Positions 43,231-46,523 of a stretch of 64,000 nucleotides of DNA are shown piece after piece. The stretch is from Methanocaldococcus lauensis (GTDB taxonomy: Archaea > AGJL01 > Methanococci > Methanococcales > Methanocaldococcaceae): assembly GCA_902827205.1 (NCBI GenBank), contig LR792634.1, positions 496,001-560,000 of the forward strand, written 5' to 3'. Under the pieces are notes generated by a model. The model ran no database searches. It was not told where the DNA came from and saw nothing but the letters and a program-made list of their open reading frames with translations. Each line of letters starts with the position of its first letter. Within the stretch, counting starts at the first letter, position 1. Made by a program: the position numbers and the translations under genes.

Positions 43231-43536
43231 AGATTAACAATTGCTCTCATATATGTGGGAGTAAAATGGAGTCCTAAGAGGGCAGGTTGTTATCTGCTCT
43301 AATTGTAAAAACTCTTTTAATCAACAGTTAGTTGGTTGCTTTAATATCTTTAAAAGAGGTTTAGGTAAAGTTAAAGATATTATGGGTGGCTTGAGGGTTA
43401 TCTCGGAGTGAAGCGACGAGAACTTAAAAACCATAAGGGTTTTATGTCCATGACAGGGGCAGAGGTTTCTCTTCAGAAACTGATGATGCCCAATCCCGAT
43501 GTGGAAGCGAAGCTTCCAGTAAGGGAATCGAACTGA
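43231..43536 (+). pseudogene. TnpB remnant D: zinc ribbon and C-terminal tail
   Basis: Pieces of a TnpB-type protein, frameshifted. Near 43242 the frame reads CSHICGSKME; a one-base shift later it reads VLRGQVVICSNCKNSFNQ and then LVGCFNIFKRGLGKV. Together these make a four-cysteine zinc ribbon. Further down, 43444-43536 reads MSMTGAEVSLQKLMMPNP, a TnpB-style C-terminus. The N-terminal two thirds are gone. It fills the 600-base gap between the P-type ATPase and truA and differs in sequence from remnants A-C, so it is a second transposon family. Confidence 0.7.
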
Positions 43537-43590
43537 AGGTTCGAGATACAAAATCCGAAGGATTTTGTTCAAATCGCAGATTTCCCTCTG
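43401..43590 (+). other. Cluster of six short hairpins, possible omega-RNA or other structured RNA
   Basis: Consecutive stems occur at 43401-43421 (TCTCG/CGAGA), 43427-43443 (AAAACC/GGTTTT), 43465-43480 (GTTTCT/AGAAAC), 43502-43518 (TGGAAGC/GCTTCCA, GAA loop), 43528-43544 (TCGAAC/GTTCGA) and 43548-43568 (ACAAAATCC/GGATTTTGT, GAA loop). An outer stem AGGGAA/TTCCCT (43522-43527 with 43582-43587) encloses the last two. This overlaps the 3' end of tnpB remnant D, where omega-RNAs are encoded. Read by eye, not folded by software. Confidence 0.5.
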
Positions 43591-43701
43591 ATGGTCTATA
43601 AAGTCGATCATAACGGAAAATATCTAACTAAAATTTCCTAATTGTCTATACTCGTCTATGAATGACTACATTGGGAGAACCCTCTTAGATAGGTGGAAAT
43701 A

Positions 43702-44475
43702 ATGTATATTCTAAAAACTGCCTATGATGGAAGATATAGTTTTCAGCAACAACCTCATAAAGAAACGGTTTGTGATATTTTATTAGATACTTTAGAAGAA
43801 ACTGGCTTTTTATATAAAAGGAAGATAATTTATAGCGGAGGTAGGACTGATAAGGGAGTTTCTGCCCTAGGGAATTTTGTTGTTGTAGAATTAAAAAAAG
43901 AGCCAATACTCTCATATATAAATGCAAAGTTGAAAAATAGGGGGATTTGGGTTTTAGGTTATAGAGAAATTAATGAAATTCCAAAAGTGAAGTATAGACA
44001 TTACCGATACATTCTACCAAATATTGATTATGATGTTGATTTAATTATAGAAGGAGCTAAAAAATTAATTGGAACTCATAGCTTTCACAATCTGTCAAAA
44101 AGAGATAGAACAAAAGAAAAAAGTCCTATAAGAACAATCTATGATATAAAAATCTCTGAAAATGACTTTTATTTAACAATAGATATTATTGGAGAAAGTT
44201 TTTTGTGGAATATGGTTAGAAAGATCATTGGAGCATTAGATTTAATAGGAAGAGGAAAAAAACCAGTTGAATGGATTGATAAATTGTTAGATGAAAATTA
44301 TAGAGAAGGAGTTCCAACATTTCCACCGGATGGGTTGATATTGGTTGAGGCAAAGGTTGATATTGACTATATTTATGACAATTATTCAATAAAAAAGTTT
44401 AAAGAGTATTGGGAAGAATTCTTTAAATTGTATGTTATGAAAATGGGTATAGCTAAAACAATATTAGATTTTTAA
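43702..44475 (+). CDS. truA: tRNA pseudouridine synthase A
   Basis: About 257 residues. It makes pseudouridine at positions 38-40 of the anticodon arm. The catalytic Asp is in YSGGRTDKGVSALG (about residues 50-63), and SFHNLSKRD plus FLWNMVRKIIGAL are further family motifs. It starts MYILKTAYDG. ATG 43702 follows TAGGTGG; a GTG at 43693 lies inside that site. A GC-rich H/ACA-like RNA begins on the opposite strand only a few bases after its stop. Confidence 0.92.
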   Translation: MYILKTAYDGRYSFQQQPHKETVCDILLDTLEETGFLYKRKIIYSGGRTDKGVSALGNFVVVELKKEPILSYINAKLKNRGIWVLGYREINEIPKVKYRHYRYILPNIDYDVDLIIEGAKKLIGTHSFHNLSKRDRTKEKSPIRTIYDIKISENDFYLTIDIIGESFLWNMVRKIIGALDLIGRGKKPVEWIDKLLDENYREGVPTFPPDGLILVEAKVDIDYIYDNYSIKKFKEYWEEFFKLYVMKMGIAKTILDF

Positions 44476-44480
44476 ATTAA

Positions 44481-44555
44481 GTGTCCCCCGGGGGAGCAAA
44501 GGAGAATCATCGCTTGCCGGGCTGTTGCTCATCTCCCGCGGTTTCCCGGGGCATA
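44481..44555 (-). ncRNA. H/ACA-like guide RNA candidate with kink-turn
   Basis: A 75-base GC island in AT-rich DNA. On the minus strand it shows a lower stem (CCCCGGG near the 5' end with CCCGGGG near the 3' end, one bulge), a two-sided internal loop (left AAACCGC, right UUUGCUCC) able to act as a pseudouridylation pocket, and an upper stem GGAGA/UCUCC. Above this is a kink-turn: bulge GAU, tandem GA pairs, U-U, then GC/GC. The 3' end is ACA, 16 bases after the upper stem, matching the 14-16 rule for H/ACA RNAs. Target not identified. It could alternatively be a plus-strand terminator, but the kink-turn argues against this. Confidence 0.68.
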
Positions 44556-44642
44556 AATAATATAGATAGCATCCACTTTATATAATTTAACTAACCAAAA
44601 TCATCATATATGCTTTATAATTTTATCCTAAAAGGTGAAATT

Positions 44643-45767
44643 GTGAAATTCTTCAACAGAGAAAAAGAAATTAATGAAATTCTATTAATCTTAGAGGGAG
44701 AGCCAAATTTTATTTACTTTGTATATGGTCCTATAAATAGTGGGAAATCAACTCTAATAAGGGAGATTATAGCCAATAAATTAGACAAATCCAAATACAT
44801 TCCATTTTTTATTGATTTTAGGACAAGGAATATAGTAAATGTAGATAACTTTATTGAATGCCTATTTGAAGTGGATGAAAAATCTAAAGTAGATGATTTT
44901 AGAGAGTATGCTAAATCGTTGGCTGATTTATTAATTAAAGGTTCTGAAGAGATTAGCAATTATTACTTAGGTATGCCAATAAAAATCCCTAAATCATTTT
45001 TCGATAAAATTTTTAATAAAAAGGATAAGTCAGGAGATGTTTATCAGTATATCGAATATTTATTCGCTAAATTAAATGAGAAAGGTAAAAAACCAATACT
45101 AATATTTGACGAACTGCAGATGATTAAAGAAATAACATTAAATGGGAATAGATTGTTATTGTGGAGTTTATTCCAATTCTTAGTTACCTTAACTAAAGTC
45201 CAACATCTATGCCATGTCTTCTGTATCTCTTCCGATAGTTTGTTTATCGAGTATGTATATAATGCTGGTGAGTTGGAAGATAGAGCAGATTATATATTAG
45301 TAGATGATTTTGATAAAGAAACTGCTTTAAAGTTTATGGACTTCTTAGCTAAAGAAATATTAAATAAAAATCTCTCTGATGATGAGAAAGAAAAGATATA
45401 TTCTTATGTCGGTGGAAAGCCAGTTTTAATCTATAAAGTTATCGATAAAATGAGATACAAAGATTTAGAAGATATATTAAACACAATGATTAAGGATGAA
45501 ATTTCAAAATTAGAAATGTTTTTAGAAAAATTAGATTATATAACTCCAAAAGTAGAAATTGAAAATGAAATTATAGAACTAAAAAAGGAAGATATTGTTG
45601 AAGCACTAAAAATCTTTAAAGATAAATACATAATCCATAAAAGAGAAATTTCTACACCTGTCTATATATATTTAGTAAAGAAAAACATCCTTTTCTTAAA
45701 TCCAATTGAAGGAACCTTAAAACCTCAAAGTTATTTAGTCTGGAACGCTATAAAGAGAGTTTTATAA
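44643..45767 (+). CDS. Archaeal ATPase-family protein (Pfam Arch_ATPase type)
   Basis: About 374 residues. The P-loop is [15 protein letters not shown] (about residues 27-41) and Walker B is [13 protein letters not shown] (about 153). A C-terminal winged-helix-like region follows. The characteristic N-terminus [12 protein letters not shown] identifies this multi-copy family of Methanocaldococcus, STAND-like ATPases of unknown function, sometimes considered mobile. GTG 44643 is chosen behind AAGGTGA; an ATG at 44610 lacks a site. Monocistronic. Confidence 0.8.
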
Positions 45768-45806: not shown

Positions 45807-46523
45807 ATGAAAAAATATATTATAAGTATTGGAGTAGATATATCTAACAATGATGTAAGAACAAATCCTAAAGTTAATGAGTTAGTTAATAGAGAGGTTA
45901 AAGAAAGATTGTCTAAATTAGGAATAAAGGCATGTATCTCAAATATAACCGGAGATGATATAGTTATAACATCGTTCGTTCCAGAGGATTTAATTGAGGA
46001 AAATAATAGAATAATCTTTGAAATTTTAAATAAATATGCCGAGGGCTTTAATGATTTAAATGGGATCTCAGAAGATAAAGATAAGGCTGGGGAAGGTTTA
46101 TCTTATGCTGTTGCTGAATCTATATCTGAGTATGGAGATGCTATAATAGTATCTTTTGATACTTATGGAGGAGAGAGTTTTGTAGATGAAATGGCTCTAT
46201 TTGTAAGGGAGATTGGGGAGAAGTTTGGATATGATGTTGGCTGTTCTGTCTCTAATGAGCCAGTTGAAATTCCTGGAATTGGCTATACTGGCTCAGAGAG
46301 TGATGACCCAGTTGTTGTAATAACAGTTAATGAACTTAAAGAGATAAGTAAAATATCTGGATTAATATATGGGGGTTTATTAAGTTTTGATAAATTATAC
46401 TTTGTAAAAAATGGGGAGGGGGTTGATATTCTACCCCCTGGCGTTATCTATACGATGAGTGCATTTTTAAATGGAAATATAATTGACTTATACGAGGGGA
46501 TTAAAAAAAGAATTAAGTTTTGA
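45807..46523 (+). CDS. DUF2121-like methanogen protein
   Basis: 238 residues with no signal or membrane segment. Conserved-looking stretches are IISIGVDISNNDVRTNP at the N-terminus, AEGFNDLNGISEDKDKAGEGLSYAV written here in part (about residues 78-100), NEPVEIPGIGYTGSESDDPV in part, and LPPGVIYTMSAFLNGN. It is methanogen-restricted and, from memory, corresponds to MJ1676. No function is known. It precedes marC by nine bases, so co-transcription is likely. Confidence 0.55.
   Translation: MKKYIISIGVDISNNDVRTNPKVNELVNREVKERLSKLGIKACISNITGDDIVITSFVPEDLIEENNRIIFEILNKYAEGFNDLNGISEDKDKAGEGLSYAVAESISEYGDAIIVSFDTYGGESFVDEMALFVREIGEKFGYDVGCSVSNEPVEIPGIGYTGSESDDPVVVITVNELKEISKISGLIYGGLLSFDKLYFVKNGEGVDILPPGVIYTMSAFLNGNIIDLYEGIKKRIKF

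Follow-up and report, generated by a model that had tools for sequence, protein, structure and literature searches.

The 64-kb stretch of the Methanocaldococcus lauensis genome that we analysed (the window) carries on its minus strand a genuine archaeal H/ACA guide RNA. This single-hairpin box H/ACA RNA of 71 nt is, on the evidence of its sequence, very probably the Methanocaldococcus ortholog of Pab160 of P. abyssi and Pf9 of P. furiosus, with uridine 900 of 16S rRNA as its predicted target. PMC3726423 describes Pab160 as the functional homolog of Pf9. The family is already catalogued, also in Methanocaldococcus since M. jannaschii carries a match to the same model, and the novelty of the element is accordingly low. 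What is gained is a reliable guide-RNA annotation with a corrected target, together with a testable question, namely whether a mismatch next to the target uridine can be tolerated by a conserved guide, at a position (n-1) that prediction rules treat as essential.

When the whole window was scanned against Rfam 15, the only match above any curated threshold was to RF02796 (Pab160, archaeal H/ACA), which aligned over its full length to the minus strand with 66.5 bits (curated cut-off 47.4 bits; E 2.4e-9 for the window). The genome (1,479,331 bases, one contig) holds a single copy, and M. jannaschii, included in a control set of 14 genomes, has the RNA as well. The element, at 44482-44552, falls within an interval (44479-44557) that an earlier note, made from the letters of the DNA, had described as resembling a GC-rich minus-strand H/ACA guide; the composition was confirmed (66.2% GC in the element, 28.4% in the window), and the covariance model, which the note had suggested as a check, bore out both the kind of RNA and its strand with a full-length match above the cut-off. 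The element is the highest-GC 71-nt stretch of the 64 kb, and none elsewhere is as high. On the minus strand it reads GCCCCGGG AAACCG C GGGAGAU GA GC AACA GCCCGGC AA GC GAU GA UUCUCCU U UGCUC CCCCGGGGG ACA, and its parts are collected in Table 1 with the two neighbouring genes.

Table 1. Features of the guide RNA and its neighbours (positions in the window; RNA numbering runs 5' to 3' along the guide).
Feature	Position	Strand	Basis and remarks
Pab160-family H/ACA guide RNA, 71 nt	44482..44552	-	Rfam RF02796, 66.5 bits, covering the whole model (1-68)
Lower stem 5' strand CCCCGGG, RNA 2-8	44545..44551	-	Paired with 44486-44492; relatives show compensatory changes
5' guide arm AAACCG, RNA 9-14	44539..44544	-	Complementary to 16S CGGUUU; AACCG invariant in 45 distinct sequences
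Upper stem 5' strand GGGAGA, RNA 16-21	44532..44537	-	Pairs with 44500-44505; 44 or 45 of 45 paired per position
Kink-turn GA, RNA 23-24	44529..44530	-	Sequence; predicted from kink-turn rules
Apical part beyond the kink-turn: GC...GC stem with GCC/GGC hairpin, RNA 25-41	44512..44528	-	Rfam structure alignment
GAU bulge and kink-turn GA, RNA 42-46	44507..44511	-	Sequence; UGA invariant in relatives; predicted L7Ae site
Upper stem 3' strand UCUCCU, RNA 48-53	44500..44505	-	Pairing with 44532-44537
3' guide arm UGCUCC, RNA 55-60	44493..44498	-	GCUCC complementary to 16S GGAGC, invariant in 45 sequences; first U opposite C, a mismatch
Lower stem 3' strand, RNA 61-67	44486..44492	-	Pair counts across relatives
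ACA box	44482..44484	-	Sequence; invariant in relatives
truA-family tRNA pseudouridine synthase gene	43693..44475	+	Pfam PF01416, 97.7 bits; convergent with guide, not part of it
MJ1010-like archaeal ATPase gene	44610..45767	+	Pfam PF01637, PF21690; divergent from guide, not part of it

The element has the topology of archaeal box H/ACA RNAs, a hairpin with a lower stem, a two-sided pocket and an upper stem. The terminal ACA, the pocket, the GAU bulge and the tandem G.A pairs named by the earlier note are all present in the sequence, the last two as a GA / GAU-GA kink-turn. The five-pair upper stem set 16 bases from the ACA box that it described holds if the closing G.U is left open; with this pair closed, the stem has six standard pairs and the spacing is 15 nt, or 14 nt when C15.U54 is taken to form a stacked layer, and the element in this way shares the 14-15 nt of archaeal H/ACA RNAs. 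Folding, another check that the note had proposed, gave a divided answer, the exact 71 nt at 37 C adopting the expected lower-stem, pocket and upper-stem arrangement and the fold with flanks being no better than shuffles (z -0.66). Thermodynamic folding alone is uninformative here and would have missed the element.

Comparison with relatives defines which parts of the molecule are fixed and which are free to vary. A match to RF02796 was found in 12 of the 36 genomes sampled from the order (the phylum-level sample consists of the same 36), all of them in the genus of the window, where 12 of 14 genomes carry it, M. jannaschii included. Of 61 Thermococcales genomes sampled, 60 match. Named records with the motif were metagenome bins of Thermococcus and Methanocaldococcus, plus chance matches in bacteria. 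Across 45 distinct sequences there is no change in AACCG, in GCUCC, in the kink-turn UGA or in the ACA, whereas the stems vary. In the upper stem, G-C pairs are replaced by C-G, A-U or G-U, and 44 or 45 of the 45 sequences are paired at each of the six positions, the register of the count being fixed for all sequences but one, which carries an additional base. In the lower stem, the outermost G-C is C-G in G003 and G012, and A-U or U-A pairs occur nearer the pocket in some Thermococcales; note that the MAFFT alignment sets this stem one column off in one group relative to the other, that its pair counts use a register chosen by pairing and are hence biased toward the structure, and that the row of the window was counted in the wrong register. 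These compensatory changes in both stems indicate that the structure is conserved on the minus strand, as the earlier note had expected of a real guide.

The Methanocaldococcus RNA resembles Pab160 and Pf9 in its near-identical length, the two guide cores, the kink-turn, the ACA box, the spacing, the 16S site and a score above the cut-off. However, it has one pair fewer on the 5' side of the lower stem and a longer apical loop, and the pair at n-1 is lost, the guide base being U and not C and the rRNA base C and not G. The member of the family in M. jannaschii also adjoins truA and has identical arms and an identical 16S site; it differs from that of the window by a few stem substitutions. At the outermost lower-stem position (44485 and 44552), the window has G.G, whereas the terminal G-C is intact in M. 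jannaschii; G-C is also present in G005, a genome of the same species, and in G009. The G.G of the window, where its closest relatives have G-C, speaks against the main reading.

Every uridine of the 16S and 23S rRNA of the genome (loci L003 and L005) was scored against the pocket, and the highest score, 26, fell on 16S U900, within GGAGCC-U-G-CGGUUU; the next site scored 19, and 3 of 400 arm shuffles equalled 26. This uridine lies in GGAGCCUGCGGUUU. Both arms are complementary to the site, AAACCG to CGGUUU and GCUCC to GGAGC, giving eleven pairs and one mismatch, at n-1. An rRNA site matching both sides of the pocket, which the earlier note had called for, thus exists, though with that mismatch. 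The target that the note had itself derived, GGAGCAAA-UN-GCGGU, is in the wrong register by about two bases, the U's adjoining the stem and the 5'-side C having been counted as pairing, and is absent from 16S and 23S rRNA; the pocket reads AAACCG on its 5' side and GCUCC on its 3' side, and of the three U's beside the upper stem not all are paired to rRNA. All 18 Methanococcales genomes read share the same U900 site. In 21 genomes drawn from Thermococcales the site is GGAGCG-UG-CGGUUU and the guide CGCUCC, and all pairs form.

U900 lies 16 nt 5' of the counterpart of m1Psi938 of P. abyssi (the reference base for the count; PMC7005279) and corresponds by position to P. abyssi U922. In PMC4652768, U922 is listed among true targets as a validated pseudouridine for which two guides have been proposed. 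Pab160 would be one of the two, since its complementarity to the site is perfect in Thermococcales. Most likely, the guide of the window directs pseudouridine formation at one 16S uridine, U900. Cbf5 is encoded elsewhere in the genome (TIGR00425, 556.6 bits).

The n-1 position sets the genus apart. The guide base there is U in eleven of the 12 Methanocaldococcus guides and C in G003, and never pairs, the rRNA base being C in all 18 Methanococcales genomes read; in Thermococcales the position is an intact G-C pair. The 3' arm of the G003 guide (L015:1501-1567) is also longer by one base (UCGCGCUCC), with an unchanged rRNA site. According to PMC4652768, productive duplexes contain no mismatch, and n-1 mismatches are an anomaly and are excluded; the guide U opposite rRNA C in the window departs from this rule, which concerns productivity and not family membership. 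Either the strong, GC-rich remainder of the duplex may suffice at high temperature, or the guide may be weak or have a further target. That Pab160 in Methanocaldococcus functions despite the loss of the n-1 pair, or has changed to accommodate it, so that the rule is not general or a new target has been acquired, is a proposal we hold only tentatively and consider rather unlikely.

A related alternative accepts the family and questions the target: U900 would no longer be the target, or not the only one, the n-1 base having drifted, the pocket serving another RNA, or guiding having become inefficient. The mismatch in every Methanocaldococcus guide examined, set against the perfect G-C of Thermococcales, speaks for it, as does the rule just cited. 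So does the distribution of the guide. G013, a well assembled genome (99% complete), is the one such member of the genus without a match, and neither it nor the Methanococcaceae (G014-G035) yielded a Pab160 match, though the 16S site is identical where read; no guide was seen downstream of truA in genomes lacking the Rfam match (G013, G007 and several Methanococcaceae), and when the order was searched for a pattern containing both cores, these genomes yielded scattered matches without stems but no credible additional guide. In G013 and these Methanococcaceae the guide appears to have been lost or to have diverged strongly. But no other uridine of the 16S and 23S rRNA scores near U900, and the invariance of both guide cores within the genus fits a maintained pairing with it, so that we regard a change of target as improbable and retain U900.

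Another rRNA site considered for the pocket was 16S U1231 in helix 41, approached through GGGAGCAAA-U, where the 3' side of the guide forms nine contiguous pairs in this genome. The 5' arm, however, scores only 0-3 there, without pairing, and the helix-41 bases differ in relatives (GCGAAU, GCUAAU) with no matching change in the guide. Because of the unpaired arm and this independent variation, we judge the nine-base match to be a coincidence and reject the site as a target, its probability being very small indeed. Equally hard to credit is the idea that the GC-rich sequence behind truA is no RNA gene but a palindromic terminator or repeat, a reading suggested by the terminator-like hairpin that a simple scan picks at 44484-44503 (minus strand) and by the unremarkable plain fold with flanks, but refuted by the full-length covariance-model match, the conservation of pocket and ACA across orders, the single copy in the genome and the carriers in which the element lies away from truA. 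Chance is excluded by the Rfam match together with the conservation in relatives.

If the RNA operates as a Pab160-type guide, its transcript would start in the short divergent stretch that precedes the ATPase gene and run leftward. The kink-turn would then be bound by L7Ae, and the lower stem and ACA box would be held by Cbf5 together with Nop10 and Gar1. Pairing of both arms of the pocket with the 16S strands given above would present U900 (E. coli U950 by position), which would be converted to pseudouridine.

The 3' ends of the guide and of truA face each other, and six bases separate the truA stop codon from the ACA. TruA modifies tRNA without guides, and the enzyme of H/ACA guides is Cbf5. 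The guide sits directly behind truA in 10 of the 12 carriers and far from it in G003 and G012, for which reason a functional link with truA is rejected. Since adjacency fails in these two genomes, TruA is guide-independent and Cbf5 is encoded elsewhere, the truA neighbourhood is incidental; the earlier note was right to allow that the nearby pseudouridine synthase might be a coincidence.

Three further observations concern the surroundings of truA. Upstream of the gene, at 43301-43660, the window has a GC-richer block (up to 52%) with an open reading frame without Pfam match; it is 97% identical in the same-species genome G005, pieces of 48-60 nt with about 88% identity occur near truA of G013 and in G006, and the block is perhaps a dispersed repeat. 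Downstream of truA in G035 (L178), a short GC-rich palindromic element (CCTCGCAACGTCGCGTCGTTGCATCC ... CCTCCTCGCTATGCTCGGAGG) lies inside an apparent duplicated gene start and is possibly a repeat insertion. Finally, the window contains at 45807-46523 an open reading frame without Pfam match, and since a similar frame directly follows truA in several Methanococcaceae, it is the guide and the ATPase gene that separate the two here.
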